From: Oceanotoga teriensis
GTDB taxonomy: Bacteria > Thermotogota > Thermotogae > Petrotogales > Petrotogaceae
Assembly: GCF_003148465.1 (NCBI RefSeq)
Contig: NZ_QGGI01000013.1
Coordinates: 1 to 64,000 of the forward strand
DNA: 64,000 nucleotides
Direction: 5' to 3'
A program made the translations under genes and the position numbers. Below are positions 1 through 35,638 of the stretch, one piece after another (positions within the stretch are counted from its first letter, which is position 1; the number at the start of each line of letters is the position of its first letter). The notes below the pieces were generated by a model. It worked only from the letters and a program-made list of their open reading frames with translations. It did no database searches and was not told the origin of the DNA.

Positions 1-1065
1 TTAAAATCATTAATGAGAAACACATTTAGAGAATTTTATGATTTTAAAAATTTAAAAGAAATGAAGGAAAAAGAAGCAGAACTTTTTGGAGATTTGAATA
101 AAGCTTCTCCAGTAAAGATAATTTTTAAAAAAACAGATATTAAACCTTTTAAAGAATATTTATTGCCTCATAAAATTACTGAAAAAGAAAAATCACTAAT
201 GAAATGTATAAAAGATAGAAGAAAATTTAATATAATTTTTGTTTCAAATGATTATGAAAAATTAATTTGTTATTTAATTATTTTAATTCAATCTTCTATA
301 TTAGGAGGATTAGGAAAAAGATCAAGAAAAGGAAATGGAACATTTAAAATTACAAAAATTAATGAAAAGAAAATAAATTATAAAAAAGATAATAATAATA
401 ATGATAATAATGAAAAGAAAATGGGGGAAGAAAAAACAATTGAAGAAGATATTATATGTTTTGAAATTGATAAATTTTTAAATATTTCATATGAATATTT
501 GAAAAAATTTTTAAAAGAATTGGGACTTAACGAAGTAGAAGAAAAAAAATTAAATTGTTTATTATTAGAAAATTTTATAAATAATAAATTTAATATTAAT
601 GATTTAAAGGATTGTGAATGGGCAAAATTATATGAAGAAGATATAAAAAAGAAAGATGATTATAATTATATAAAAAATGTTTATATTATCGAATTAAAAG
701 AAGATACAGAATATGAAAAATTATTAAATAATATTTCAAAACTAACTCATGAAAGAGTAAGTCTTAAACAAGGAGATGATTTTTTAAAAAAATTAATGAA
801 AAATAAAAAAGATATTGATATAAAAAAAATAAATATAAATGTATTAGGTAATTACAAATCCAGAAACAGATTTGCTGCACCTGTATATGTAACTTTTTGG
901 GAAAATAAAGATAAAAAATATATGATTATAAAAGAGTTAAATTATAATTATATTTTTAAAAAATTAGGGATTGTAATTCCTCAACAGAAAGAAATTCATA
1001 TAAATTATATAAATAATTTTATAAAGTGTTTAAAAAGCATAGTAAGTAAAAGGGGGAGAAAATGA
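1..1065 (+). CDS. cmr1: Type III-B CRISPR RAMP protein Cmr1, 5' end cut by window edge
   Basis: Cmr1 is the RAMP subunit capping the spacer-distal (3' guide) end of the Cmr effector complex. The reading frame is open to base 1, and the first readable residues (LKSLMRNTFREFY) look like the family's internal 'RGALRFWFRA' helix, so the start lies upstream of the window and the first in-window ATG (position 13) is not the start. Supporting motifs are EKEAELFG with a following AS, and the glycine-rich GGLGKRSRKG segment near codon 100, both typical of Cmr1. A run of Asn/Asp/Lys codons around 385-440 forms a low-complexity insertion. It overlaps cas10 by 4 bp, so the two are translationally coupled at the head of the visible operon. 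Confidence 0.85.
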   Translation, partial: LKSLMRNTFREFYDFKNLKEMKEKEAELFGDLNKASPVKIIFKKTDIKPFKEYLLPHKITEKEKSLMKCIKDRRKFNIIFVSNDYEKLICYLIILIQSSILGGLGKRSRKGNGTFKITKINEKKINYKKDNNNNDNNEKKMGEEKTIEEDIICFEIDKFLNISYEYLKKFLKELGLNEVEEKKLNCLLLENFINNKFNINDLKDCEWAKLYEEDIKKKDDYNYIKNVYIIELKEDTEYEKLLNNISKLTHERVSLKQGDDFLKKLMKNKKDIDIKKININVLGNYKSRNRFAAPVYVTFWENKDKKYMIIKELNYNYIFKKLGIVIPQQKEIHINYINNFIKCLKSIVSKRGRK

Positions 1066-2933
1066 AATATCTTTTTGGAATAACAATAGGACCCGTTCAA
1101 TCTTTTATTATAGAATCAAGAAAATTAAAAGATTTGTACAATAGTAGTAAGATAATATCATATTTTTCTAAAGCAATAATAATTGATAAATTAAAAAATA
1201 ATGAAAAAATAAAAAAAGAAGTAATATATCCATGTATTAAAACAGATAATGTAGATTATGTAGATTATTCTAATTATTTAATAATAGAATTAGAACCCGA
1301 AAAGGAAATAAATTTAAAAGAATATATAGAAAATATTATAAATGAAGTTTTTGATGATTTAGCAGAGAAATTAAAAGAAAAAGTATCAAAAGAAAACACA
1401 TTAAAAGCATTAAAGGAAAACTTTCATGTTTTTTGGGCTGTTGTAGAAATAAAAGAAGAAAATTTATATAAAAATTCATACAATGAATTAAATACTCTTA
1501 TAAAGAGTTTAAAAAACACTTATGAATTTGATAATAAATTTGAGCAAGAAGAAGGAAAATATAAGTGTAGTATATGTGGTAAAAGAAATGGTGAAAATAA
1601 GGATAATGAAGAAATATTATGTGATTTATGCTATTTTAAAAGGAAATTTGATTTTGAAAAAACATCAACAGAAACACCAAAAAATTCATTTCCTTCAGTA
1701 TATGATATTTCAATACATAATTGGGAAAATACAATACACAAAAATGGTTCAAGTTATGAGAAAATTATAAAAAGTGAGCTTTCAAAAAATCATAATATCC
1801 ATGATAATCATAATGAGTATTTAAAATATATTAATTTTGAAAATAAAAAATATTATAACCCAGATGAGTTTAAAAAAATTATAAATATTATGGAAAATAA
1901 AGATTCAAATAATTTAAAAAAATGCGAAGAATATAAAAAAGAGATAAATAAAAGTATTAATAAATTAAACGAAAAATATTTAAATCTAATTTATAAAAGT
2001 TTGATTAATATATATAAAGATAATAAAATACCAAAACCTAACTTTGAATATTGTTTTATTCAATTTGATATAGATAGTTTAGGAAAATGGATGAGTAGTG
2101 AAAAGGTAATAAAGTCAAAAGACTTACAAAGAGAATTTTCAGAAGAATTGAGTAATTTTTCTGAAAGAATTTCATGTAAAATAAAAGATGAAGATAAAGC
2201 TAAAGATGTTAAAGTAATATATTCTGGTGGAGATGATTTTTTGGCAGTAACTTCATTAGAGAGATTAGAATATATTTTTTATATTATTGATGAATCTTAT
2301 AAAGAATTATTACCAAAGTTAAAAAAATATTTTGGATATGAAAACAAACTTACTTATTCATTAAGTGTTACCATAGCACAGTGTAAAGATCCTATGAGTT
2401 ATGCATTGGAAAAAACAAGGTTAGAATTAAATAATGTAAAAGAAAGATATGATAGTAAATATCAAAAAGATGGAGTTGCTATAAATTATATTATAAATAA
2501 CGGTAAAGAAATAACAGCTTATATGAAAAAAAGTGAATTTAAAGAACTTTTAGAATTAAAAAATTATTATAAAAACTTAAGTTTAGATAAAAATAAAATA
2601 TCATTTTCATATATAGATAAAATATTTGAAGAATTTAAAGTTTTTGACTATAAAAAAATTACTAATGATGAAAAAAATTCATTGTATGAAATAATGTCAG
2701 AAGATATTAAAAGAATTATTTTAAGGAGTATCGATAAAAAAGAATATTCTGAATATATACGTGAATTAAATTATTTTATAAGAGAAACTATAAAAAATAA
2801 TACACAAGAATATAAAAGTAATTATCTTAATATTGATTTTAAAAATATAATAAATGTTTTAAAGATTCATAAAAAAATTTGTGAAACTAATTTTATTAAA
2901 TTAAAAGATGGGAATGATAAAAATGGAATATAA
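1062..2933 (+). CDS. cmr2: Cas10/Cmr2, type III-B large subunit, cyclase-type, no HD domain
   Basis: Large subunit of the Cmr complex. On target-RNA binding this family makes cyclic oligoadenylate from ATP through its Palm domain. The protein begins directly with the Palm-1 signature GPVQSFI (about residues 11-17). It has a zinc knuckle (CxxC at 169/172 and 187/190) and the intact cyclase motif SGGDDF with GGDD at 389-392. At 623 residues it lacks the N-terminal HD nuclease found in longer Cas10 proteins; no HD pair precedes Palm-1. Loss of HD single-strand DNase activity suggests the complex relies on second-messenger effectors, which fits the CARF nuclease two genes downstream. Its 3' end overlaps cmr3. 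Confidence 0.93.
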   Translation: MKYLFGITIGPVQSFIIESRKLKDLYNSSKIISYFSKAIIIDKLKNNEKIKKEVIYPCIKTDNVDYVDYSNYLIIELEPEKEINLKEYIENIINEVFDDLAEKLKEKVSKENTLKALKENFHVFWAVVEIKEENLYKNSYNELNTLIKSLKNTYEFDNKFEQEEGKYKCSICGKRNGENKDNEEILCDLCYFKRKFDFEKTSTETPKNSFPSVYDISIHNWENTIHKNGSSYEKIIKSELSKNHNIHDNHNEYLKYINFENKKYYNPDEFKKIINIMENKDSNNLKKCEEYKKEINKSINKLNEKYLNLIYKSLINIYKDNKIPKPNFEYCFIQFDIDSLGKWMSSEKVIKSKDLQREFSEELSNFSERISCKIKDEDKAKDVKVIYSGGDDFLAVTSLERLEYIFYIIDESYKELLPKLKKYFGYENKLTYSLSVTIAQCKDPMSYALEKTRLELNNVKERYDSKYQKDGVAINYIINNGKEITAYMKKSEFKELLELKNYYKNLSLDKNKISFSYIDKIFEEFKVFDYKKITNDEKNSLYEIMSEDIKRIILRSIDKKEYSEYIRELNYFIRETIKNNTQEYKSNYLNIDFKNIINVLKIHKKICETNFIKLKDGNDKNGI

Positions 2934-4086
2934 TTTATTAAAAATCAAACCAACTGATAATACTTTTTTTGGAACAGGAAATCAGTTTAATTATGAAATA
3001 AATAATATACTTAAAAGTATGAATATAGCATATCCTTCTACTTTTTTTGGAGGTATATTTACTGCAATTTTATCTAAAAATAAAAGTTTTAGACAAGAAT
3101 TTTTTCAAAAAAAATATTATGATCATGAAAAAATATTAGAAATTAGACAGATTTATTTATACAATGAAATTGAAAACAAGTTTTATATAAAAGCTCCTTT
3201 AGATTTGTTTTTTGATAAAGACAATAAAAATGAAATTAAATTAGGTAAATTTAAAAAATGTGATGATTATACATGTTTGAAATATAATTATTATCTATCT
3301 TCTGATAAAAGTTTTGAAAAAGTAAAAGATTGTTTTATAGAATTAGAGTTTGATTTAGAATCTTATGTTAAAAATGAAATCTTTTTAATAGAATTAAAAA
3401 ATGAAAATGAAATATTTTCAAAAAACAATAAAATTGGTATTTCAATAGATAAAAAAACAAAAAATGTTGAGATGGGTAAACTTTATAAGATTCAACAAAC
3501 TGAATTTATAAAAGATGAGTGGTCTTTTGTTGTTGAGTACAAAATAAATAAAGAATATTTAAAAAACAAATATGAACTTAAAGGCTTAGATTTAGATTCA
3601 GATTTAGATTTAAAAATAGGATTCTTGAAGTTGGGTGGAGAAAATAAAGTTTGTAAATATGAAAATATAGAAAGTAAAGAAATAAAAAATTTTCAAAAAT
3701 TAATAGAAGATGATCAAAAAATTTTAAAAAAAGGATTTTATAAAATTATTCTAACGAGCGACAGTTATTTTACCAAGGATATAAATCAAATATTTGAAAA
3801 TAAAAATATAGAATTATTATCGATAGTTAATGACAAACCAATTTATATTGGTGGATATGATATGGAAAAAAGAAATAAAAAGTCAAGTAATGAAAAAGGT
3901 ATTAGAAAAATGTATAAAGGATATTCGGCTGGAAGTATTTTTTTAGTAGAAACTAAAGAAGATAATATAGATTTAAATGAATGTATAAAGAATTATATAG
4001 ATTTAAATGAATGTACAAAAAATTGTAAAGGTTTTAATAACTATATAGTAGTTGAGTGCAATAATATTGAGGAGGAAACAATATGA
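2923..4086 (+). CDS. cmr3: Type III-B CRISPR RAMP protein Cmr3
   Basis: Cmr3 is the Cas5-like RAMP that holds the 5' repeat-derived tag of the crRNA in the Cmr complex. The N-terminus (KIKPTDNTFFGTGNQF followed by YPSTFFGGIFTAI) matches the Cmr3 'PLDPLFFRDGRPF...P.P.T..GALR' pattern. I chose the ATG at 2923 because GGGA lies about nine bases upstream; an in-frame ATG at 2908 is the alternative. The last third contains a tandem in-frame duplication of ten codons (3967-3996 and 3997-4026, IDLNEC repeated). The gene overlaps cmr2 upstream and shares an ATGA overlap with the nuclease gene downstream, so all three are probably made in proportion. Confidence 0.85.
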   Translation: MEYNLLKIKPTDNTFFGTGNQFNYEINNILKSMNIAYPSTFFGGIFTAILSKNKSFRQEFFQKKYYDHEKILEIRQIYLYNEIENKFYIKAPLDLFFDKDNKNEIKLGKFKKCDDYTCLKYNYYLSSDKSFEKVKDCFIELEFDLESYVKNEIFLIELKNENEIFSKNNKIGISIDKKTKNVEMGKLYKIQQTEFIKDEWSFVVEYKINKEYLKNKYELKGLDLDSDLDLKIGFLKLGGENKVCKYENIESKEIKNFQKLIEDDQKILKKGFYKIILTSDSYFTKDINQIFENKNIELLSIVNDKPIYIGGYDMEKRNKKSSNEKGIRKMYKGYSAGSIFLVETKEDNIDLNECIKNYIDLNECTKNCKGFNNYIVVECNNIEEETI

Positions 4087-5438
4087 GCGATGGAATTGAA
4101 GCAATGGTAATATGTTCTACATTGAATCAAATAACAAATTATTTGATGATAAAAAAATATAAACCTAAAAAAATATACAATATTACATATAAAAATGATG
4201 ATGATAATAAATTTGATAATGAGAAATGGGATGAGTATTTAAAAGAACAATTAAAAAAAGATAAAGACTTTGAGAATTTTGAGAATAAAGACTGGAATAA
4301 AGTCTTAAAATATAAGTTAGAAGAAGATAAAAAATATTTTATAGACATAAAGTTATCTTTGAAAGAAACACTTCAAATAGAAAAAATAAAAAAAAGATTT
4401 GAAACCTTAAAAGATAAAGAAGAAGAAATTTATTGGCACATTACAGGGGGTCAAAGATTAATAGCTATGGTTATAAAAAATATTATAAAAGATAGAAAAA
4501 AAGATAAAATTTTATATGTAGAAGGAAATACAGAAAAATTAATAAGTTATGATTATGAATTTAATCCAACAGAAGAATCATATAATGATAATAGTTTGAA
4601 TTTTAATCAAGCTTTGAGTTTAGTTGGTTTTAATTTATCAGAAAAAAATATAAAAAAAGAAGAGTCTAAAAATAAAGATATAAGAGAGTTTATAGAAAAA
4701 GAAATTATAAGTAATAAGGAAGAATATAAATTTTATTTAAACTTATATGATTTTTTTATTGATAAAGATATGGGAAAAGACTTTAAAATAAACAAAGAGA
4801 TCTTAAATGATATTAAAACAGAAAAAGATAACATTAATTTTAATGAAGATTATTGTACAAGTTTTAAAAATGCATTAATATTTTCTAATAGAATAAAAGA
4901 TAAAGTAAAAAGAAAAGAATTTATAAAAGAGATTTTTGAAAAAATAAAAGAAATAAATAAAGAATTAGATTTTGAGTGTTGTGATTCTCGTTTTGGATAT
5001 ATTTTTGAGAAAATTATACTTTATAAAATAATTTCATTAATACAAGAAGAAGATAATAAAATTTCTGATATTATTGCAAGTATGAAAGCATTATCAAATG
5101 ATAATACTGTTAAAGGTATTGTTGATGAAATAGATATAGCTTTATTAAAAAATACTGGTAAAATAATAAATTTAGAATGTAAATCTGGAAAAATGGATGG
5201 AGATAATGCTAAAAGTAATAAATATACTACTTATAGGCTATCTGGAGTTTTTGGTATGCCGTATTTAGTAACTCCGTTACTTGAAGGGGAAGAAAATGTT
5301 AATGAAAAAGAAAATCCAGAAAAAGAAAAGTTTATTTTGAAAAAATCTATTGAAGCTTTTAATTCTGCTAAGAGAGCTGAATTAAAAGTAATAAATTTTA
5401 ATAAATTAACAAAAGAAATAATTAAAATAATAAAATAA
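4083..5438 (+). CDS. CARF-domain PD-(D/E)XK nuclease (Card1/Can2, DUF1887-like) inside the cmr operon
   Basis: Probable ancillary effector activated by the cyclic oligoadenylate made by Cas10. The N-terminal ~170 residues look like a CARF Rossmann fold, with a ligand-loop motif HITGGQRLIAM starting at H119 that resembles the 'NITGGTK' loop of Card1/Can2 proteins. The C-terminal part has a PD-(D/E)XK nuclease signature: GYIFEK helix, DEID at 348-351 and LECKSG with E365-x-K367. All acidic positions and the lysine are present, so it is likely active. In characterised relatives this fold nicks DNA or cuts RNA after cA4 binding; the actual substrate here is inferred. It sits between cmr3 and cmr4 with an ATGA overlap and an upstream GGAGG, so it is co-expressed with the complex. 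Confidence 0.85.
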   Translation: MSDGIEAMVICSTLNQITNYLMIKKYKPKKIYNITYKNDDDNKFDNEKWDEYLKEQLKKDKDFENFENKDWNKVLKYKLEEDKKYFIDIKLSLKETLQIEKIKKRFETLKDKEEEIYWHITGGQRLIAMVIKNIIKDRKKDKILYVEGNTEKLISYDYEFNPTEESYNDNSLNFNQALSLVGFNLSEKNIKKEESKNKDIREFIEKEIISNKEEYKFYLNLYDFFIDKDMGKDFKINKEILNDIKTEKDNINFNEDYCTSFKNALIFSNRIKDKVKRKEFIKEIFEKIKEINKELDFECCDSRFGYIFEKIILYKIISLIQEEDNKISDIIASMKALSNDNTVKGIVDEIDIALLKNTGKIINLECKSGKMDGDNAKSNKYTTYRLSGVFGMPYLVTPLLEGEENVNEKENPEKEKFILKKSIEAFNSAKRAELKVINFNKLTKEIIKIIK

Positions 5439-5457
5439 AGATTTAGGGGGAAATAAA

Positions 5458-6408
5458 ATGTACGATAATGCAAAAATGATTTATATAAAAACATTAACTC
5501 CAACACATGCAGGAGCAGGACAAACACTTCAAAATGTTGATATGCCTATTCAAAGGGAAACAAATACCAATATTCCAAAGATAGAAGGTTCTAGTTTAAA
5601 AGGATCTATAAAGCATAGTATATATAGAAAAATTAAAATTAATGAAAAAGATGTTAATGAAGAAGATGTTAATGAAGAAGAAAAAATGTTAAATAAAATA
5701 TTTGGTAATGATAATGGAGATTCAGCAAGTAGAATAGGTTTTACAGATGCAAAGTTATTATTTTTTCCAATAAAATCAACTACTGAAATATATAAATTAA
5801 TTACATGCCCTTATGTATTAAAAAGATGGGTAGAAGATTTAGAATATTGCGAAAAAGAAGATCTTAATTATATAAATTTTGATTCTATAAAAAGTATAAG
5901 TATAAGTGAAGGAGAATGTATATCTTTAAATAAAGGCTCACAAGTATTAGAAGAATATATATTTGAAAATAATGAAAATAACAAAAATAAAATTAATGAA
6001 ATTACAGAAATTTTAAAAAAATTTGATATAGAAATTTCTGAAATAGAAAAAAGAATTGTAATATTAAATGATACAGACTTTATTGATTTAGTTAGTATGT
6101 ACACTGAAATAATAACAAGAAATAGAATAGATCCAAAAAAGGGTGTTGCTGAAAATAAAGGGTTATTTACAGAAGAATATTTGCCAACAGAAACAATAAT
6201 GTATTTTATGGCCTTATCTTCACCTGATTTTTTTGAGAAAGTAGATGAAACAAGTATAAATCCTTTTGATTATTTAGAGAAAGAGTTAGATTATGTTTTT
6301 CATGTTGGAGGGTATTCTACTATTGGTAAAGGGTTAGTAAAGAGAACAAAAATAACAAAAACAGCTAATAAACCAGATAATTCTGAAAATGAAGATGGTG
6401 GGAAATAA
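5458..6408 (+). CDS. cmr4: Type III-B CRISPR RAMP protein Cmr4 (backbone, target-RNA cleaving)
   Basis: Cmr4 is the Cas7-like backbone subunit that polymerises along the crRNA and cuts target RNA at 6-nt intervals. The N-terminus carries the family pattern TLTPTHAGAG, then NVDMPIQRE, then PKIEGSSLKGSIKH. Asp28 in VDMPIQRE corresponds to the catalytic loop aspartate of characterised Cmr4 proteins, so slicing should be retained. A charged repeat (NEKDVNEEDVNEEE, about residues 61-74) looks like a codon-repeat expansion. The C-terminus has HVGGYSTIGKGLVK, the usual glycine-rich RAMP loop. An AGGGGGA site precedes the ATG, and the stop codon overlaps cmr5 as TAATG. Confidence 0.95.
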   Translation: MYDNAKMIYIKTLTPTHAGAGQTLQNVDMPIQRETNTNIPKIEGSSLKGSIKHSIYRKIKINEKDVNEEDVNEEEKMLNKIFGNDNGDSASRIGFTDAKLLFFPIKSTTEIYKLITCPYVLKRWVEDLEYCEKEDLNYINFDSIKSISISEGECISLNKGSQVLEEYIFENNENNKNKINEITEILKKFDIEISEIEKRIVILNDTDFIDLVSMYTEIITRNRIDPKKGVAENKGLFTEEYLPTETIMYFMALSSPDFFEKVDETSINPFDYLEKELDYVFHVGGYSTIGKGLVKRTKITKTANKPDNSENEDGGK

Positions 6409-6959
6409 TGAGCTTAAAAAATATGAATTTAGAAGTATCAAAGTATGCACTTGAATGTGTAGAAAGAGTTATAAAAAATGAAAATGACTATAATGACTAT
6501 AATAAACCAAATCCAAAGTCTGTCGATAAAAAAAGTTATAAGACTTTAGTAAAAAAAATGTCTACATTAATACAAAAAAATGGTTTCATAAATACAATAG
6601 TTTTTTTAATGTCAAAAGCAAATGAAAAAAATTATAAAAATGGAGAAAAAATAGTAAGAAATAATGATGAATTGAAAAAAATACATTCTAAACAACATTA
6701 TAATTTGATATTACAAGATATACTAAATTGGCATAAAGAAAATCCTAAAATCGAATTAGAATTACAAAATCTATCAGAAAATTATGATTTTAACACTAAA
6801 AAAGTTCAAGAATATATAAAATTTTTATATGATTTAAATTCACAGGAATACAGATTAATAACAAAAGAAATGATGACATTATTTGGTTGGATAAAAAGAT
6901 TTGCCGATGCCATGATAGAAAGTGAAGATAAAACCTCTGAAAATAATGGAGGGGATTAA
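6408..6959 (+). CDS. cmr5: Type III-B CRISPR small subunit Cmr5
   Basis: Cmr5 is the all-helical small subunit that lines the belly of the Cmr complex opposite Cmr4. At 183 residues it is somewhat long for the family. Recognisable pieces are SKYALECVERV at the N-terminus, KKMSTLIQKNGFINTIVFLMSK in the middle and EYRLITKEMMTLFGWIKRFA near the end, matching the family's 'NG(L)...FL.SK' and 'T.E...WLKRFA' signatures. It starts on the ATG overlapping the cmr4 stop (TAATG) and ends two bases before cmr6, consistent with one polycistronic operon. Confidence 0.9.
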   Translation: MSLKNMNLEVSKYALECVERVIKNENDYNDYNKPNPKSVDKKSYKTLVKKMSTLIQKNGFINTIVFLMSKANEKNYKNGEKIVRNNDELKKIHSKQHYNLILQDILNWHKENPKIELELQNLSENYDFNTKKVQEYIKFLYDLNSQEYRLITKEMMTLFGWIKRFADAMIESEDKTSENNGGD

Positions 6960-6960
6960 T

Positions 6961-7848
6961 ATGGAAATAGAAAAAACTAATAAAGATATTGTTTTTAAAT
7001 ATGATAATAATAAAAAAGAAATGATATATTATACATATAAAAAAATTCATTTGAATTTAAAAAATAGAAATAATTCAATATCTAATTTAAATTTAAAAAT
7101 TAATAAATTTACTAAAAAAAATAGATTATTAAAAGAGTATGGTTTAAATATTAATTTAAAAAAATTAAAACCAAATTTAAATGAAATAATTAATACATAT
7201 AAAAAAAGTTATATTTATATTAAACTTGTAGGAAAAATAGAGAATAAATTAATAATTGGATTAGGAGGACATTCTGTAATCGAAACAGATATTACAATGC
7301 ATCATACATATGGTATACCGTATATTCCAGGATCAGCTTTAAAAGGTGTATTAAGAAATTACATAATAAAAAAATATTATATTAATGATGAAATTAAAAA
7401 TTTAAAAGAACTAGAAAAAGAAATAAGTGAAGATAAATTATTTAATGATATATTTGGTGGAGAAGAAAATATGGGAGGATTAATATTTTTAGACAGCTTT
7501 CCAGAAGAAAAAGTAAAAATAAAAACAGATATAATGACTCCTCATTATCCTAATTATTTTGGAAGTGAAAATCAATGTCCAAGAGATGATGAAAAAGTTA
7601 ACCCAGTTAAATTTTTAGTTTTAGAAGGAGATAAAAAAGAAGAATACGATTTTGAATTTAATCTATTTATTGATAAATTAAAAGTTAATAAAAAACTAAG
7701 CGATTACAAAAAATCTGAAATTTCAAACTCTGAAAATGAAAATAAAACATTAAAAGAATTTATAGAACTAAATTTAAAAGAAGCATTAGAATTAAATGGA
7801 ATTGGTGGAAAAACATCTGTTGGATACGGATTTTTTTCATTTGACTAA
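6961..7848 (+). CDS. cmr6: Type III-B CRISPR RAMP protein Cmr6
   Basis: Cmr6 is a RAMP subunit next to Cmr1 at the spacer-distal end of the Cmr complex. Diagnostic motifs are TYGIPYIPGSALKGVLRNYI (about residues 116-135), FNDIFGGEENMGGLIFLDSFP and the closing GIGGKTSVGYGFF loop. The ATG at 6961 is chosen because AATGGAGGGGAT lies just upstream; the same frame extends back to an ATG at 6922 but that one has no ribosome-binding site and overlaps cmr5. It is the last gene of the operon and its stop codon runs into an intrinsic terminator. Confidence 0.93.
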   Translation: MEIEKTNKDIVFKYDNNKKEMIYYTYKKIHLNLKNRNNSISNLNLKINKFTKKNRLLKEYGLNINLKKLKPNLNEIINTYKKSYIYIKLVGKIENKLIIGLGGHSVIETDITMHHTYGIPYIPGSALKGVLRNYIIKKYYINDEIKNLKELEKEISEDKLFNDIFGGEENMGGLIFLDSFPEEKVKIKTDIMTPHYPNYFGSENQCPRDDEKVNPVKFLVLEGDKKEEYDFEFNLFIDKLKVNKKLSDYKKSEISNSENENKTLKEFIELNLKEALELNGIGGKTSVGYGFFSFD

Positions 7849-7880
7849 AAAGAAGATTTAAATCTTCTTTTTGGTTTTTT
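7847..7880 (+). terminator. Intrinsic terminator of the cmr operon
   Basis: A perfect 26-bp palindrome (7847-7872; arms AAAAAGAAGATTT and its complement) overlaps the cmr6 stop codon and is followed by GG and six T residues. It separates the cmr transcript from the CRISPR leader. Confidence 0.85.
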
Positions 7881-7908
7881 ATAATAAAAAATTTCCAGGT
7901 GATGGAAG

Positions 7909-8064
7909 TTGAAAAACTGATAGAAATAGTATATAATAATAATTAGGAAAGAAAAAAGGAAGAAATTTTAATTGAGATGAAATCGCTGGAACTAAAATCA
8001 GTAAATGTATTGATAATAAGTGTTTTAGCATATTGATGATTTCTGGAATCCTTTATTCATGACT
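7909..8064 (+). promoter_or_regulatory. CRISPR leader with near-consensus promoter
   Basis: The 184-bp gene-free stretch before the first repeat contains TTGAAA (7909-7914) and TATAAT (7932-7937) with a 17-bp spacer, a near-consensus sigma-70-type promoter pointing into the array. The predicted start is about 120 bp before the first repeat. This direction agrees with the array polarity shown by degenerate repeats at the far end. No further repeat copy is visible in the leader. Confidence 0.65.
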
Positions 8065-8560
8065 CTCTAACAATAACAAGAATTGTATTTAAATGCTACC
8101 ATCTAAGCTTTCCACAATCTTGTGATTATCCTCTAACAATAACAAGAATTGTATTTAAATAGAAAATCCAACGCATTTATACCCCAGTCCCTCATGCTCT
8201 AACAATAACAAGAATTGTATTTAAATTTAGCACTTTTTGTGCTAAATCCGTCGGGGTATCTAACTCTAACAATAACAAGAATTGTATTTAAATAGCTTTT
8301 GAAAGACTTGATATTTCTTTTTCTGATAGACTCTAACAATAACAAGAATTGTATTTAAATACAATAGCCTCTTTTAAAGATGTGTTTATTTCTAAACTCT
8401 AACAATAACAAGAATTGTATTTAAATATTTCCCTCCTCTGACTTGTTCACTTAGTATGCACATCCTCTAACAATAACAAGGATTGTATTTAAATTCTTCT
8501 GAATAAGTTTCCTTTCCGTATGGATTTTTGCTCTAACAATAACAAGAATTGTATTTAAAC
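8065..8560 (+). CRISPR. CRISPR array, 8 repeats of 30 bp and 7 spacers of 36-38 bp
   Basis: Repeats start at 8065, 8131, 8197, 8264, 8331, 8397, 8465 and 8531. The unit begins CTCTAACAATAACAAG and ends GTATTTAAAT. Repeat 7 has one A-to-G change (position 17 of the unit) and repeat 8 ends in C instead of T, so the leader-distal end is on the right. The terminal ATTTAAAT would be the 8-nt 5' handle after Cas6 cleavage, as in type I-B arrays of clostridia and their relatives. Spacers are 36, 36, 37, 37, 36, 38 and 36 bp. Spacer 3 (8227-8263) contains an internal inverted repeat TTAGCAC...GTGCTAA. Confidence 0.98.
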
Positions 8561-8658
8561 AGTTCTTCTTTCATGTTTCTTTCCTAATCTTATTTAATCT
8601 ATTAAGCCTATAAAATTCCAATAAAAATTTATTTTTTAATTTTATTAATATTGTGTTA

Positions 8659-8676
8659 TTTGTGTGTTATAATTAA
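8659..8676 (+). promoter_or_regulatory. Extended -10 promoter of the cas4-cas1-cas2-cas6 operon
   Basis: TTTGTGTGTTATAATTAA contains a perfect extended -10 (TGT-TATAAT, 8665-8673). No good -35 hexamer is seen at 17 bp, as often with extended -10 promoters. The same 18 bases occur again at 12261-12278 before the acetyltransferase gene. Confidence 0.55.
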
Positions 8677-8690
8677 AAAGAGGTGACATA

Positions 8691-9182
8691 ATGGATATAA
8701 ATGGTACATTAATTAATTATTATTTCCATTGTAAGAGACAATGCTGGTTACATGCAAATAGAATAAATTTAGAAAATGAATTTGAGTTAGTTGATATTGG
8801 AAAAGCTATGCATGAAATAAAATTTAACAATAAAAAAAATTCGGAAATAAAAATTGATAATATTTCTATTGATAAGTTAACTAATGATTATGTTATAGAA
8901 TATAAAAAATCTGATGCAGATATTGAAGCTGCAAAGTGGCAACTTTTATTTTATTTGAAAGTACTTAAAGAAAAAGGTATTGATAGAACAGGAAAATTAA
9001 TTTTTGCTGAAAAGAATAAACAAAGCAAAAAGACAATAGTTGTTAAATTAGATAAAGAAAATGAAAATGAATTATTGAATATTATGAAAAACATAAATGA
9101 ATTAATTAAAGGAGATATACCAGAAGTTAAATTAATCAAAGGTTGTAAAAAGTGTGCTTTTTATGAATATTGTTTTTTATAG
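8691..9182 (+). CDS. cas4: Cas4, CRISPR adaptation exonuclease (RecB-like, Fe-S)
   Basis: Cas4 trims pre-spacers and sets PAM choice with Cas1-Cas2. At 163 residues it is the usual size for type I-B Cas4. Visible features are the N-terminal YYFHCKRQCWLH with the first cysteines, GKAMHEI with the RecB motif I histidine, the nuclease motif VIEYKKS (E-x-K), a QLLFYL motif III and the C-terminal cysteine cluster CKKCAFYEYC that completes the iron-sulfur site. GAGGTGA precedes the ATG. It is the first gene of a four-gene operon with its own promoter immediately after the array. Confidence 0.93.
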   Translation: MDINGTLINYYFHCKRQCWLHANRINLENEFELVDIGKAMHEIKFNNKKNSEIKIDNISIDKLTNDYVIEYKKSDADIEAAKWQLLFYLKVLKEKGIDRTGKLIFAEKNKQSKKTIVVKLDKENENELLNIMKNINELIKGDIPEVKLIKGCKKCAFYEYCFL

Positions 9183-9193
9183 GAGATGTTTTT

Positions 9194-10189
9194 ATGAAAA
9201 CAAAATATTTAATGAGCATGGGAACATTATCGAGAAAAGATAATTCTTTAGATTTTAAAAATGAAAAAGGTCATAATTATATTCCAATAACAGAAATTAG
9301 AGAAATATATTTAATGAATGAAATTTCTCTGAATACTAAATTATTATCATTTTTATCTCAAAATAATATTATTGTACACTATTTCGATTATTATGGTTTT
9401 TATAGAGGAACTTTCTTTCCTAAAGAACATTATATATCAGGAAAATTATTATTAAAACAAATTAATGCTTATGAAAACAAAGGAATACTTATAGCTAAAA
9501 AAATAGTTTTAGCTATAAGTATTAATATATATAATACTCTTTACCATTATTATAGACATGGAAATAACGAAATTTATGATTATTTGAATTATTTAAAAGA
9601 TGATTGTAAAAATAAAATAGAAAAATCTAAAACTATTAATAATTTGTTAGCTGTTGAAGGAGAAATATGGCAATTATTTTATAAAAATATAAAATATATT
9701 ATAAATCAAAATATTGATTTTAGTAGAAGAGTTAAAAGACCACCAGATAATCCGATGAATGCTATGATATCTTTTGGTAATTCTTTGCTTTATACTAAAA
9801 CAATAACTCAAATATATCATACTCATTTAAATCAGTCCATAAGCTACTTACATGAATTATCTAAGAGTAGATTTTCATTAAGTTTGGATTTATCAGAAGC
9901 TTTTAAACCAATAATTGTTTTTAAAACTATTTTTGATTTGATAAATAATAAAAAAATAAATTTAAAAGAACATTTTAATAAAAAAGTTAATTATTGTGTT
10001 TTAAATGAGAAAGGTAAAGAAATTTTTTTAATAAATTTTGAAAAAAGATTAGATAATAAATTTGATCATAAATCTTTAAAAAGAAAAATTTCTTATAATT
10101 CTGCTATAAAATATGATGGATATAAATTAATAAAATTTTTATTAGAAGAAAAAGATTTTATGTTTTTTAATGATAAGGAGAAAAAATAA
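9194..10189 (+). CDS. cas1: Cas1, CRISPR integrase
   Basis: Cas1 forms the spacer integrase with Cas2. The metal-site residues can be assigned: E155 (VEGEIWQ), H220 (YLHELSKSRF) and D232 in LSLDLSEAFKP. Length (332 residues) and sequence fit type I-B/III Cas1, with no reverse-transcriptase or other fusion. I start at ATG 9194, preceded by AGGAG; the frame extends back to 9170 inside cas4, which would be an unlikely start. The stop codon overlaps the cas2 start as TAATG. Confidence 0.96.
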   Translation: MKTKYLMSMGTLSRKDNSLDFKNEKGHNYIPITEIREIYLMNEISLNTKLLSFLSQNNIIVHYFDYYGFYRGTFFPKEHYISGKLLLKQINAYENKGILIAKKIVLAISINIYNTLYHYYRHGNNEIYDYLNYLKDDCKNKIEKSKTINNLLAVEGEIWQLFYKNIKYIINQNIDFSRRVKRPPDNPMNAMISFGNSLLYTKTITQIYHTHLNQSISYLHELSKSRFSLSLDLSEAFKPIIVFKTIFDLINNKKINLKEHFNKKVNYCVLNEKGKEIFLINFEKRLDNKFDHKSLKRKISYNSAIKYDGYKLIKFLLEEKDFMFFNDKEKK

Positions 10190-10470
10190 TGTCTAAAAAT
10201 ATAAATTATAATTATGCTATACTGATGTATGATATAAATGAAAAAAGAGTCCAAAAAGTATTCAAAATATGTAAGAAATATTTAGAACATTATCAAAAAT
10301 CTGTTTTTATTGGAAACATTACTCATTCTAATTTGATTAGATTAAAAAATGAAATCAATAATATTATAGATGAATCAGAAGATTTTGTTTCAATAGTTAA
10401 ATTGTATAATGAATCAAGTTTTGAAATAGAATCATTTGGCAATAAAGAGAATGATGACTTAATTTTATAA
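10189..10470 (+). CDS. cas2: Cas2, CRISPR integrase scaffold
   Basis: Cas2 is the small ferredoxin-fold dimer that bridges two Cas1 dimers during spacer integration. The 93-residue product contains ILMYDINEKRVQKVFKICKKYL, with the beta-1 aspartate of the Cas2 fold, then the QKSVFIGNIT segment that corresponds to the usual 'Q.SVF.g.l' motif. Its start overlaps the cas1 stop, so the two are translationally coupled. Confidence 0.95.
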   Translation: MSKNINYNYAILMYDINEKRVQKVFKICKKYLEHYQKSVFIGNITHSNLIRLKNEINNIIDESEDFVSIVKLYNESSFEIESFGNKENDDLIL

Positions 10471-10490
10471 AAATATGAGAAGGTGAAAAA

Positions 10491-11189
10491 TTGAAATATT
10501 ATGAATTAATAACTACAGTTATGCTAAAAAAAGATTTGTTTTTTGATGAAATAAATTGGAGAATAGGACAATTAATCAATCAATCTATTTATTTTTCTAA
10601 AGAATTAAGAACAATACATAAAAAAAATGAATTTAAATATTATGTGTTTTCGGGATTAACTCCAATAGAAAAAGAAAAGGTATATAAAAATGGGAATATA
10701 TATATTTTTAGAATAAAATCAATAGATGAAAATATATTAAAAGAAATAAAAGAAAATTTTGTAAATGTTAAGAATAACTATTTTCATATAATATCAAAAG
10801 AGATAAGTATATATGGTGAAAAATATATAAATAATTTATATACTTTAAATGCAGCTATTTGTACAAAAGAAAATATAAAAGATGGATATTGGAAAAAAGG
10901 AGATGATTTAGATTATTTAAGAGAAAGAATAACAAAGAATATAGTTAGAAAATATAAAAATTATTATGGGGAATTAATAGAATTAAAATCAGATTTTATT
11001 GAATATATAGAAATACTAAATAGAAAACCAATAGTGTATAAGTATAAAGATACAAAAATATTAGGAAATAAGTTTAATCTAAAAGTATCGACAGAAGAAA
11101 ATGCACAAAAATTAGCTTTTTTGGCGAGTGCAGTGGGAATATTAGAAAAAGGAACATCTTTAGGTGCGGGATATTGTATAGCAAAATAA
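10491..11189 (+). CDS. cas6: Cas6, CRISPR repeat endoribonuclease (adaptation-operon copy)
   Basis: Cas6 cuts the CRISPR transcript inside each repeat to leave the 8-nt 5' handle. The 232-residue protein ends with the glycine-rich loop GILEKGTSLGAGYC typical of Cas6 RAMP proteins. It starts with TTG at 10491, preceded by GAGAAGGTGA at good spacing. It follows cas2 with a 20-bp gap and is the last gene of the operon; the convergent methyltransferase gene begins only 6 bp later. It is clearly different in sequence and length from the second Cas6 at 43025-43813. Confidence 0.82.
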   Translation: MKYYELITTVMLKKDLFFDEINWRIGQLINQSIYFSKELRTIHKKNEFKYYVFSGLTPIEKEKVYKNGNIYIFRIKSIDENILKEIKENFVNVKNNYFHIISKEISIYGEKYINNLYTLNAAICTKENIKDGYWKKGDDLDYLRERITKNIVRKYKNYYGELIELKSDFIEYIEILNRKPIVYKYKDTKILGNKFNLKVSTEENAQKLAFLASAVGILEKGTSLGAGYCIAK

Positions 11190-30574: not shown

Positions 30575-32299
30575 TTATATGTTATTTAATTCTTTTAATA
30601 TAGATTCTTTAAACAATTTAAGTTTGTTTTCTGATTCTTTTAAAGTTTTTCCTTTTGAATATATATAAACTTTTATTTTAGGTTCTGTTCCAGAAGGTCT
30701 TACTGCATACCAAGAGCCGTCTTCAAACCAGAATCTTAAAACATTTGATTTTGGTATATCAACTTCTGAATTTTTATTATTTATTATATCATATTCTTTT
30801 TCTTCTTGATAATCAACATATTTTATTAGTTTTATATCATTTACGTTTTTTGGAAAATTTTTTCTATAATTTATCATCATATTAGAAATTTTTTCTTTTC
30901 CTTCAAGACCTTCAAGAACTATTGAAAAATTATTTTCTCTATAATATCCATATTTTATATATATCTCTTCTAATACATCTAAAAGAGTTTTGCCTTTTGT
31001 TTTATAATAAGCAGCTGCTTCAGAAAGGAACATTGAAGATATTACTCCATCTTTATCTCTTACAAATGTACCTGTTACATATCCAATGCTTTCTTCATAT
31101 CCAAAATGAAATGTCTTGTTTTGTTTTAAAAGTTCATTTTCTTTTCCACATATATTCTTAAATCCTGTTAATGTTTCATATGTTTTTACACCATAACTTT
31201 CTGCAATAACTTTTCCGAGATCTCCAGTGACAATAGATTTAACAATAAAACCATCATTGTTTATCAAATTTTTTTCATTTTTACTTTCAAGAATATAATT
31301 TATTAGAATAGCTCCAGTTTGATTACCATTTAATGGAATATATTCTCCATTTCCATCTTTAACTTCAACTGCTAGTCTGTCACAATCTGGATCTGTAGCT
31401 ATAAGTATTTCAGCATTTTCTTTTTTTCCTAAACTTTCAGAATATTTAAAAGCTTTTGTATCTTCTGGATTTGGATATCCTACAGTTGTAAAGTTTGGAT
31501 CTGGATTTTCTTGTTCTGGTACAACTATAACATTTTTAAATCCTCTTTCTTTTAATACTCTTCTAACGGGAATATTTCCTGTACCATTTAATGGAGTATA
31601 TATTATTTTTATATCTTTATCTAATTCTTCATCTCTTATTGCTAATGATTTTACTAATCTTGTATATTCGTCATCTACTTCTTTTCCTATTATTGTTAAT
31701 AAATTTTCTTCTTTAGCTTTCTCTAAATCTAAATATTTTATTTCTTCAAATGATTTTATATTTTTTATATTGTTGGTTATTCCATCTGCAACTTCTGATA
31801 ATATTTGAGAACCTTCTTCCCAATAAACTTTATATCCATTGTATTCTTTTGGATTATGACTCGCAGTTATAACTATTCCAGAAGTAGCTTTAAAATATCT
31901 TATAGCAAATGAAAGTTCAGGAGTTGGTCTTATATCTTCAAATAAATATACTTTTATTCCATTTGCAGTTAAAACGGATGAAGCTATTTCAGAAAATTCT
32001 TTAGAAAAATGCCTAACATCATAAGCTATAGCAACACCCTTCTTAGCATATTCTTTTCCTCTAAAATTTATATAATCGGCTAATCCTTGTGTAGCCTTTG
32101 CAACTGTATATATATTCATTCTATTGCTTCCAGCACCCAATATACCTCTTAAACCAGCAGTGCCAAATTCAAGATCAAATATAAATCTGTTTTTAATTTC
32201 TTCTTCATCGTCTTTTATAGACAACAATTCTTGTTTTGTTTGCTCATCAATTACAGGACTGTTTAACCATTCCAAATATTTTTCTTTGTAGTTCATCAT
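30575..32299 (-). CDS. Phosphoglucomutase / phosphomannomutase (PgcA-like)
   Basis: Interconverts glucose-1-phosphate and glucose-6-phosphate (or mannose forms). The 574-residue alpha-D-phosphohexomutase has GTAGLRGILGAGSNRMN at the N-terminus, the phosphoserine loop TASHNPKEYNGYK, the Mg loop DPDCDRLAV, the sugar loop GYEESIGY and the phosphate-binding RPSGTEPKIK at the end. Length fits the Bacillus PgcA group. It overlaps the upstream aminotransferase by 4 bp. Together with glgX and the debranching enzyme it would feed glycogen glucose into glycolysis. Confidence 0.92.
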   Translation of the reverse strand: MMNYKEKYLEWLNSPVIDEQTKQELLSIKDDEEEIKNRFIFDLEFGTAGLRGILGAGSNRMNIYTVAKATQGLADYINFRGKEYAKKGVAIAYDVRHFSKEFSEIASSVLTANGIKVYLFEDIRPTPELSFAIRYFKATSGIVITASHNPKEYNGYKVYWEEGSQILSEVADGITNNIKNIKSFEEIKYLDLEKAKEENLLTIIGKEVDDEYTRLVKSLAIRDEELDKDIKIIYTPLNGTGNIPVRRVLKERGFKNVIVVPEQENPDPNFTTVGYPNPEDTKAFKYSESLGKKENAEILIATDPDCDRLAVEVKDGNGEYIPLNGNQTGAILINYILESKNEKNLINNDGFIVKSIVTGDLGKVIAESYGVKTYETLTGFKNICGKENELLKQNKTFHFGYEESIGYVTGTFVRDKDGVISSMFLSEAAAYYKTKGKTLLDVLEEIYIKYGYYRENNFSIVLEGLEGKEKISNMMINYRKNFPKNVNDIKLIKYVDYQEEKEYDIINNKNSEVDIPKSNVLRFWFEDGSWYAVRPSGTEPKIKVYIYSKGKTLKESENKLKLFKESILKELNNI

Positions 32300-33480
32300 A
32301 TTAAACCTCCATTTTTAAAAGATGTTTTTATTTTTTTTAATGATTTTAAAAGGATTTCTTTAGGAGTTGCAATATTCATTCTAAAAAAACCTTTTCCATC
32401 TTCTCCAAATATACTACCTTCTTCTAATCCTATATTAGCTTTGTTTATTAAAATATCCTTAATTTCTTCTTCAGAAGCAATATTTTTTAAGTTTATCCAT
32501 AATAAATAAGTACCTTCTGGAGTTATTATTTTTGAATTAGGTATTTCTTTATTAAAAAAATCGATAGTAATGTTAATGTTTTCTTTTAGATATTTTATTA
32601 AGTATTCTAACCATAATTCACCGTGTTTGTATGCTGCAATAAATGCTTCTTGACTTAATGCATTGATCATTGAATTTCCTATTTTTTCTATAGTTTCATC
32701 GAATTGTTTTTTTAAATATTCATTTGGAATTATAGCATTGGAAGCTTGTAATCCAGCAATATTAAATGTTTTACTTGGCGAATAAAAAGTTATAGAATTT
32801 TCTTTTATATTATTGTTTAAATTTGCTATTGGTTCATGTTTATTATTTTCATATATTAAATCTGAATGTATTTCGTCGGATATCAATAATACATCATTAT
32901 CAATACATATATTTGAAATTTTTATTAAGTCATCTTTAGACCAGACTTTTCCAATTGGATTGTGAGGGTTACATAATATCATCATTTTTACATCATATTG
33001 TTTTATTTTATTTTCAAGATCTTTAAAATCAATACTATAAATATTGTCTGAATATATTAATGGATTTGTGACTATATTTCTGTTTAAATTTTTTATAACA
33101 TTAAAAAAAGGATAATAGACAGGAGTTTGAATTAATATATTATCTTTTTCTTTGGTATAAGTATATATTGCAAGTTTTAATCCTGGAACAACTCCTGGTA
33201 CATAACTTATCCAATTTTTATCTATTTTCCATTTGTGTTTTTTATAGATCCAATTTATAAAAACATCATAATATTCATCAGAGGTTTTTGTATATCCAAA
33301 TATTCCATGCTCTGTGCGTTTTGATAATGCTTTTATTATATCATTACTTGATTTAAAGTCCATATCAGCAACCCACATAGGAGTAATATTTTCTTTTCCA
33401 AATATTTGCTCGAGATTGTCCCATTTTATACAATTGGTATTTTTTCTTTCTATTATTTTATCGAAATTTATATTTTCCAT
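32296..33480 (-). CDS. MalY/PatB family PLP aminotransferase / C-S lyase
   Basis: A fold-type I PLP enzyme of the MalY/PatB group, commonly cystathionine beta-lyase active. The N-terminus (NTNCIKWDNLEQIFG then TPMWVADMDFKS) is diagnostic. The PLP lysine is in FYSPSKTFNIAGLQ near residue 234, and LCNPHNPIGKVW plus ISDEIHSDLIY are the expected cofactor motifs. The 394-residue length is normal. AAAGGGGGAAA precedes the ATG. Co-transcribed with phosphoglucomutase by a 4-bp overlap. Confidence 0.9.
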   Translation of the reverse strand: MENINFDKIIERKNTNCIKWDNLEQIFGKENITPMWVADMDFKSSNDIIKALSKRTEHGIFGYTKTSDEYYDVFINWIYKKHKWKIDKNWISYVPGVVPGLKLAIYTYTKEKDNILIQTPVYYPFFNVIKNLNRNIVTNPLIYSDNIYSIDFKDLENKIKQYDVKMMILCNPHNPIGKVWSKDDLIKISNICIDNDVLLISDEIHSDLIYENNKHEPIANLNNNIKENSITFYSPSKTFNIAGLQASNAIIPNEYLKKQFDETIEKIGNSMINALSQEAFIAAYKHGELWLEYLIKYLKENINITIDFFNKEIPNSKIITPEGTYLLWINLKNIASEEEIKDILINKANIGLEEGSIFGEDGKGFFRMNIATPKEILLKSLKKIKTSFKNGGLI

Positions 33481-33608
33481 TTATTTTTCCCCCTTTATAT
33501 AAAGTATATCAAAAAAATTTGTATTATTGAATTTTAAGAAAAATAGAGATATTTAAAGATAAAATGATTTTAAATAAACTCTTTCAATCTAAACAATTTA
33601 TTTAGAAT

Positions 33609-33637
33609 TTAACTTATCTTTATAAAAATGGTAAAAT
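33609..33637 (+). promoter_or_regulatory. Promoter of the psuK-psuG operon
   Basis: TTAACT (33609-33614), 17-bp spacer, TAAAAT (33632-33637) with TGG just before it (extended -10). The predicted start near 33643-33645 places the leader RNA structure right at the 5' end. Confidence 0.65.
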
Positions 33638-33641
33638 ATAA

Positions 33642-33732
33642 GTGTCTCAGGGTAGATTTCTCTCTTTAAAACATTCATAAAATATAAACAGTGGGATCTG
33701 TTAAGTGCTTCTTAAAAAGAAGCACTTTTTTT
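33642..33732 (+). promoter_or_regulatory. Structured attenuator leader (candidate riboswitch) before psuK-psuG
   Basis: The ~90-nt leader has an initial GTGTCTCAGGGTAGATTTC segment, a small hairpin AACAG-TGGGAT-CTGTT (33687-33702) and a strong terminator (stem AAGTGCTTCTT 33703-33713 with AAGAAGCACTT 33717-33727, T-run to 33732). The loop GGGAT can pair with ATTTC (33656-33660), and the first bases AAGTGT could compete for the right terminator arm. The terminator lies before the SD of psuK, so it must be regulated by read-through. I cannot assign a known riboswitch class from memory. Confidence 0.5.
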
Positions 33733-33756
33733 ATAATTATTAATGGAGGTATTTAT

Positions 33757-34725
33757 ATGTCTTATGTTTCTGTTATAGGGGGTATTAACATTGATTTAAA
33801 TGCTAAAACTGATTATAATTATAAATTTAATTCTAATCCTGGAAATATATTTTATTCTGCTGGCGGTGTTGGAAGAAATATTGCGGAAAATATTTCAAAG
33901 TTAGGAATTAAAACATATTTATTTGGGGTTGTTGGATTGGATATATTTGGGGAGTATGTTATTGATACTACTAAAAATATTAATTTGGATTTAAGTAGAA
34001 TTTTGAAAACGAAAAAATATAGTACAGGAATTTATCTTTCTATTTTAAATAATGATAATGATATGAGTTATGCTATTTCTGATATGAAAATAAATTCTTT
34101 AATAGATAGGAATTATATAAAAAATAATTTAGAAATTTTATTAAATTCAAAATTATGCATTATAGATACTAATTTAGATTATGAAACTATATTATATATT
34201 GTACATTTTTTAAATTGCAATAAAATAAAATATATAATTGAACCTGTATCTATACAAAAAATTAACAAACTTTATAATATAAAAGAAAATATACAATGTA
34301 TAACACCAAATATAGTAGAATTAAGAAATTTTATTGATGAAGATTTTGTTTTTAATAATGAGAAAGAGGATAATGATAATGATATAAAAAAAATTTTTGA
34401 TTTGATAAAATATAAAATTAATTTTATTGATGATATTATAGTAACACTTGGTAAAGATGGTGTATTATTTTTTGATATAATTAATGATGAATATTTTTAT
34501 GAAAAATCTTTTAGTATAGAGGTTATTAATGCAAATGGGGCAGGTGATGCATTTTTAGCTGGATATTCTTATGGGATTTATAATGAATTTGATAAAATAA
34601 AAAGTGTTAGATTGGGTATTTGTAATTCTTTAATAAATTTACAATCTGATGATACTGTTAGTAAGTTATTATCTGAAGATCTTCTTAAAAAAACTTATTG
34701 GAGGTTTTATAATGAATTTATTTGA
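33757..34725 (+). CDS. psuK: PfkB-family kinase, probable pseudouridine kinase
   Basis: A ribokinase-fold sugar kinase, called pseudouridine kinase because the next gene is a clear pseudouridine-5'-phosphate glycosidase. Features: GGINIDLNAK at the start, SAGGVGRNIAENISKLG sugar-binding loop, IVTLGKDGVLFF and the C-terminal NANGAGDAFLAGYSYG with the catalytic aspartate. I start at ATG 33757 (GGAGGT seven bases before); an upstream extension would run through the terminator hairpin. The 3' end overlaps psuG by 14 bp. Confidence 0.85.
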   Translation: MSYVSVIGGINIDLNAKTDYNYKFNSNPGNIFYSAGGVGRNIAENISKLGIKTYLFGVVGLDIFGEYVIDTTKNINLDLSRILKTKKYSTGIYLSILNNDNDMSYAISDMKINSLIDRNYIKNNLEILLNSKLCIIDTNLDYETILYIVHFLNCNKIKYIIEPVSIQKINKLYNIKENIQCITPNIVELRNFIDEDFVFNNEKEDNDNDIKKIFDLIKYKINFIDDIIVTLGKDGVLFFDIINDEYFYEKSFSIEVINANGAGDAFLAGYSYGIYNEFDKIKSVRLGICNSLINLQSDDTVSKLLSEDLLKKTYWRFYNEFI

Positions 34726-35638
34726 AAAGTATATTGATGTTTTACCAGAAATTAAAGATGCACTTGATAATAATAAACCTGTTGTTTCACTGGAATCTAC
34801 AATCATATCTCACGGGATGCCTTATCCAAAAAATGTTGAGACTGCTACTGAAGTTGAAAATATAGTTAGAAAAAATGGGGCTATTCCTGCAACTATAGCG
34901 ATAATTGATGGTAGAATTAAGATAGGACTCGATAAAAAACAACTCGAATTTATGGGGAATTCTGAAAATATTTTAAAAGCGAGTAGAAGAGATATACCTT
35001 ATATTATAGCGAATAAACTTAGTGCTGCTACAACAGTTTCGGCAACTATGATATGTTCCAATTTATCCGGCATTAGAACTTTTGCAACTGGTGGTATTGG
35101 AGGTGTCCATAGAAATGCTTCTGAAACTTTTGATATATCAGCAGATTTACAAGAGTTATCAAGTACAAATGTTTGTGTTATTTGTGCAGGAGCTAAGGCT
35201 ATTTTAGATCTAAAATTAACTTTAGAATATCTTGAAACTTTAGGAGTTCCTGTATTGGGTTATAAAACGGAAGAATTGCCGGCATTTTATTCGAGAGAGA
35301 GTGGTTTAAAGGTTAATTATAAAGTTGAAAGTCCTGAAGAAATAGCTTGTATAATGAAATCTAAATGGGATTTGAATATTAATGGAGGAGTTTTGGTAAC
35401 TAATCCTATTCCCAAAAAAATGTCTATGAATACAAATTTTATAAATAAAGCTATAGATGCTTCGATTGAAGAGGCAGATAGCTTAGGAATAGAAGGTAAA
35501 GAATTGACTCCTTTTTTATTGGCAAAGATAAAAGATTTAACAGGTGGAAGTTCTTTGGAATCGAATATTGCATTAGTTTATAATAATGCTGAATTGACTG
35601 CTAAAATAGCTTTAGAGTATTCCAATTTATTAAAATGA
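34712..35638 (+). CDS. psuG: Pseudouridine-5'-phosphate glycosidase
   Basis: Cleaves the C-C glycosidic bond of pseudouridine 5'-phosphate to give uracil and ribose-5-phosphate. SLESTIISHGMPYPKN, FATGGIGGVHRNA and the catalytic-lysine region CAGAKAILDLKLTLEYLET are family hallmarks; VTNPIP and SLESNIALVYNNA close the protein. The ATG at 34712 is supported by GGAGG; the frame extends further back inside psuK. With psuK it completes pseudouridine salvage. Confidence 0.95.
   Translation: MNLFEKYIDVLPEIKDALDNNKPVVSLESTIISHGMPYPKNVETATEVENIVRKNGAIPATIAIIDGRIKIGLDKKQLEFMGNSENILKASRRDIPYIIANKLSAATTVSATMICSNLSGIRTFATGGIGGVHRNASETFDISADLQELSSTNVCVICAGAKAILDLKLTLEYLETLGVPVLGYKTEELPAFYSRESGLKVNYKVESPEEIACIMKSKWDLNINGGVLVTNPIPKKMSMNTNFINKAIDASIEEADSLGIEGKELTPFLLAKIKDLTGGSSLESNIALVYNNAELTAKIALEYSNLLK

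Follow-up and report, generated by a model that had tools for sequence, protein, structure and literature searches.

The leader at 33640-33732 of the window (the whole 64,000-nt stretch of Oceanotoga teriensis DNA that was analysed) probably forms the 5′ leader of the mRNA for psuK-psuG and acts there as a narrow-range, conditional attenuator of transcription. As it stands, this is an ordinary attenuator; it is real and narrowly distributed, and the claim that it is a riboswitch is unsupported. The preliminary description had proposed an attenuator that might be a riboswitch. The first half of this proposal stood, given the position of the terminator, the strand logic and the second genome in which the arrangement was found, whereas the second half did not. 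Below, G000 denotes the window genome and G004 its nearest relative among the genomes searched.

The intergenic region (33480-33757) is flanked by psuK-psuG and by a divergent gene for a C-S lyase of the PatB family (32296-33480, minus strand; TIGR04350 above the cut-off); psuK (33757-34725) and psuG (34709-35638) are both on the plus strand. The psuK gene has orthologues in genomes of the same family, encodes a PfkB-family pseudouridine kinase without an N-terminal HTH, and is preceded on the plus strand by the Shine-Dalgarno sequence GGAGG (33745-33749). The earlier recognition of a psuK-psuG context was confirmed. The identity of PsuG as pseudouridine-5′-phosphate glycosidase is secure (PF04227 match; PDB 4gij, E = 6e-113). 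PsuK is a PfkB kinase, and its best NCBIfam model is pseudouridine kinase, with a score under the cut-off of the model; the name is supported because the gene adjoins psuG. In addition, the psuK frame stays open in the 5′ direction through the terminator to GTG 33691 (33691-34725), which gives a possible 344-aa form, and this GTG has no visible Shine-Dalgarno sequence. In the leftmost part of the window, a cluster (1062-11189) resembles by eye type III CRISPR-Cas genes with Cas4, Cas1 and Cas6-like ORFs.

The terminator that had been described before psuK was borne out by both the scan and the folding energy. It consists of AAGTGCTTCTT-AAA-AAGAAGCACTT plus a T-tract (33703-33732, plus strand), and its hairpin (33703-33727) has 11 bp with 4 GC, is followed by the T-run, and has an energy of −12.7 kcal/mol. 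With the T-tract included, it ends 25 nt 5′ of the psuK start. This is far above chance, with one terminator found versus 0.0 ± 0.2 in shuffles. There are nine terminator-like hairpins on the plus strand of the whole window, and the one at 33703 alone is in a 5′ position; the other eight lie behind a same-strand gene (six) or within genes (two). Because the upstream gene is divergent, the terminator can act solely on RNA running into psuK and cannot serve that gene. Furthermore, G004 has a terminator of different sequence (GGTGCTGAAAAGCACC) at the equivalent place, and the spacing to psuK is close in both genomes. Thus an intrinsic terminator lies between a promoter and the first gene on the same strand, and this position is kept in a second genome.

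The predicted promoter (33609-33637, plus strand) has a −35 box TTAACT, a 17-nt spacer and a −10 box TAAAAT with TG upstream, that is, a sigma-70-like promoter with an extended −10. The hexamers alone were not significant (3 sites in the scan versus 2.5 expected). However, the promoter was kept in G004 at 30 of 38 positions without gaps, and none of 1000 shuffles reached 30, the best being 29. In the aligned sequences, GTGT at the predicted transcript start (33642-33645, plus strand) was common to both genomes (AxGTGT). From these motifs the transcript start is expected at about 33643-33645, which is roughly where the preliminary description had placed it, at the very first base of the leader. 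The promoter given there holds through its conservation in G004, although the hexamers by themselves are at chance level.

The leader between promoter and terminator is about 60 nt long (33640-33732 with the terminator) and includes two blocks on the plus strand that match the G004 leader (L020) exactly: block 1, TTTCTCTCT (33657-33665), and block 2, TTCATAAAAT (33674-33683). The blocks (9 and 10 nt, 19 nt in total) are colinear, and 5 of 20,000 shuffles were as good, in a test that does not model shared ancestry; the divergence between G000 and G004 is large nonetheless. FTHFS is 75% identical between the two genomes and PsuK only 38%, and at this PsuK divergence a leader without selection would be expected to be largely scrambled. 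When a relaxed block pattern was run against G000 and G004, there were 22 matches, and among the 20 that were read there was no other promoter-leader-terminator unit. On sequence comparison, the conserved parts of the leader look linear rather than helical.

A search of 101 genomes for PsuK homologues gave a clear orthologue in 18 genomes of the family to which the window belongs, counting G000, and among these G004 alone has a similar leader. G004 matches the whole layout, with a divergent patB-like gene (by eye), the order psuK-psuG, the promoter, the leader and the terminator. An exact search for the block pattern in 103 genomes of the class, which more diverged leaders could escape, returned real leaders in G000 and G004 only; its three further matches were all in unrelated sequence. 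A plasmid search for the leader gave no match. A scripted scan of the sequence upstream of psuG at 66 more loci, spread over many phyla, with some of these regions also inspected by eye, found no such leader either. Meanwhile, other relatives showed different arrangements of psuK: kinases extended by an N-terminal HTH (L012 and L015-L019, by eye), a LysR gene divergent from psuK (L004), or a psuK gene closely preceded by another gene (L005-L009 and L013, by eye). Since relatives control psuK in other ways, through an HTH-fused kinase or a divergent LysR, the leader fits as a local replacement.

The leader ends in a real terminator, and psuKG is thus probably switched on by polymerase read-through. 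We propose that a constitutive promoter would start the RNA near 33643, and that by default the polymerase would halt at the hairpin 33703-33727, leaving psuKG off. Under a need for pseudouridine salvage, formation of the terminator would be blocked and the operon would be transcribed. We infer variable read-through and a signal related to pseudouridine. If the leader is an attenuator, a trans-acting factor recognising the linear sequences UUUCUCUCU and UUCAUAAAAU has a little less than an even chance of being the sensor. It is favoured because the conservation is linear and there is no shared structure. A metabolite aptamer in the RNA itself is less likely than such a factor, though within the attenuator case it deserves some weight. 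A pair of sequences is too small a sample to decide between the aptamer and the linear-factor reading, and covariation in these two leaders lends no support to a riboswitch.

The aptamer could be a small lineage-restricted riboswitch, in which the ligand of the leader (up to 62 nt) would be a pyrimidine, pseudouridine or pseudouridine monophosphate, and its binding would block the terminator. We regard this as unlikely. It agrees with the gene context, with the presence of a terminator and an own promoter, and with the conserved, unpaired-looking nucleotides from promoter to terminator. Furthermore, block 1 can be placed within a weak 5′ helix in each of the two genomes (AGUGU/ACAUU and GUGUAG/CUAUGU). 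However, the folding of the leader speaks against it. The preliminary description had reported a structured leader of about 90 nt, and this is true of the terminator hairpin, whereas the remainder shows no excess of structure. The whole leader has a folding z-score of −3.2 because of the terminator, and 33640-33703 alone (64 nt) folds like shuffles (z = −0.15). RNAalifold on the two leaders returned the terminator pairs only and no other common helix, and when all helices of the same two leaders were tabulated according to homologous segment, the only candidates were weak and GU-rich. An antiterminator helix overlapping the terminator was not found in G000, and G004 gave a weak one (AUCAU/AUGGU).

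The pairings that had been proposed for such a switch did not hold up either. In the MFE fold, a small hairpin AACAG-TGGGAT-CTGTT (33687-33702, plus strand) lies directly 5′ of the terminator and would carry the proposed pseudoknot between GGGAT and ATTTC. This pairing is at chance level, since the best run of the hexaloop is 6 nt and 57% of shuffles reach 6 too, and a comparison of helices showed that G004 has no equivalent of the hairpin. The proposed competition of the 5′ bases AAGTGT for the 3′ arm of the terminator is a 6-bp match that about 12% of shuffles equal and that is weaker in G004; it is far too weak against the 11-bp terminator.

The preliminary description had matched the leader to no known class by eye, and the Rfam search of the G000 leader agreed. 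At gathering and permissive thresholds, including the preQ1 class, nothing credible was found for either leader. A Histone3 hit on L020 (1426-1471, minus strand; E = 1e-7, 31.6 bits versus a gathering cut-off of 34) was rejected, being on the wrong strand and from a eukaryotic family; its source is a short GC stem in the AT-rich DNA of the G004 leader. The 66 other psuG loci, which have no similar leader, also count against a riboswitch, as does the literature searched, with few subscription journals covered, in which we found neither a psuK leader nor a riboswitch or other RNA sensor for pseudouridine, a base that is abundant in cells. We think it rather improbable that the leader is an undescribed, very small RNA sensor of pseudouridine or pseudouridine-5′-phosphate which, in one bacterial branch, has taken control of psuKG from protein regulators.

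The main rival outside attenuation is a second promoter past the terminator. According to this explanation, the 90-nt unit would be a separate small RNA, and psuK would be transcribed from its own promoter with the −10 box TATAAT at 33732-33737. This perfect TATAAT follows the T-run, 25 bases before the ATG, and would give a transcript start some 12 nt upstream of this codon. However, the best properly spaced −35 box (TTCTTA) is poor, the site was not called in the scan, and G004 reads TATATC there. In addition, psuK follows closely on the terminator in G004 as well as in G000. We consider this explanation improbable.

Two further explanations are very unlikely. In one, PyrR bound to the leader would favour termination at high UMP. 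Uracil is a product of pseudouridine breakdown, and PyrR was above the cut-off in 4 of 21 family genomes (G000, G004, G007 and G011), so that a clear PsuK orthologue and PyrR occur together in the leader genomes G000 and G004 and in no other of these. These two are close relatives, and the co-occurrence may thus be due to descent. The PyrR binding loop has the consensus ARUCCNGNGAGGYU. The psuK leader has no such loop even at one mismatch, while canonical loops (AGUCCAGAGAGGCU, AGUCCAGUGAGGCU) are present before uraA, which makes PyrR control of psuK very unlikely. The loop AGUCCAGAGAGGCU and its variants lie directly before the Shine-Dalgarno sequence of a uracil-permease-like gene in G000 (C13:66465-66591, equal to L128 1501-1627, just beyond the window), G004 (L129) and G011 (L131). 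The G000 match scored 38.3 bits and the others lower; none reached the RF00515 gathering cut-off (54). A loop without a terminator at this place looks like translational PyrR control. In the other explanation, which we find still harder to credit, a leader peptide is translated from a near-leaderless ORF whose stop codon in both genomes is the TAA within TTCATAA (length 12 codons in G000, starting at GTG 33642, and 13 in G004, starting at ATG); the frames are open in both, but there is no Shine-Dalgarno sequence, block 1 is in different frames by eye and so is not conserved as peptide, and such a peptide has no logical tie to pseudouridine.

If the attenuator answers to pseudouridine, directly or via a protein, it would be a first regulatory handle on the salvage of this product of RNA turnover. 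It would also be an example of relatives exchanging protein control (HTH-fused kinase or LysR) for a leader.

Several known systems can be compared with the psuK leader. ANTAR control calls for two hairpins whose hexaloops have A1 and G4 and for an ANTAR protein in the genome. The hairpin 33687-33702 resembles these dual-hexaloop attenuators in lying before a terminator and in having a hexaloop with G at position 4. However, the loop TGGGAT has T1 instead of A, and there is a single hairpin, which is absent in G004. These features do not agree with ANTAR control, which also fails because G004 is without an ANTAR protein. The ANTAR response-regulator match in G000 (C3:118995-119141; L148 796-942) is in a frame of 64 aa, whereas relatives have about 200-220 aa. 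It neighbours a transposase-like ORF (L148 21-725, minus strand), and an insertion element seems to have cut the gene short. PyrR-dependent pyr attenuation (RF00515) is similar to the psuK case in that the operon is pyrimidine-related and PyrR is encoded in both leader genomes. It differs in that the psuK leader is without the PyrR loop that uraA has in the same genomes.

In the guanidine-IV and Gd4v riboswitch motifs, the second loop, which belongs to the terminator hairpin, carries essential conserved G/U residues that pair with a loop further upstream (PMC7736828, PMC9788692). The psuK leader shares with them the small size, a terminator as the 3′-most hairpin and a proposed pseudoknot from a loop to an upstream sequence. 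However, its terminator loops, AAA in G000 and GAAA in G004, lack the required G/U residues, so that this class was rejected; the pseudoknot is at chance level and the gene context differs as well. The leader can also be compared with the general class of attenuators with a terminator in the 5′ leader, whose control is by a riboswitch, a protein or the ribosome. The psuK leader, seen in two genomes, differs from these in having no recognisable sensor and, in G000, no overlapping antiterminator helix. It is like them in having a promoter, a short leader and an intrinsic terminator before the first gene of a catabolic or salvage operon, with no co-directional gene upstream.
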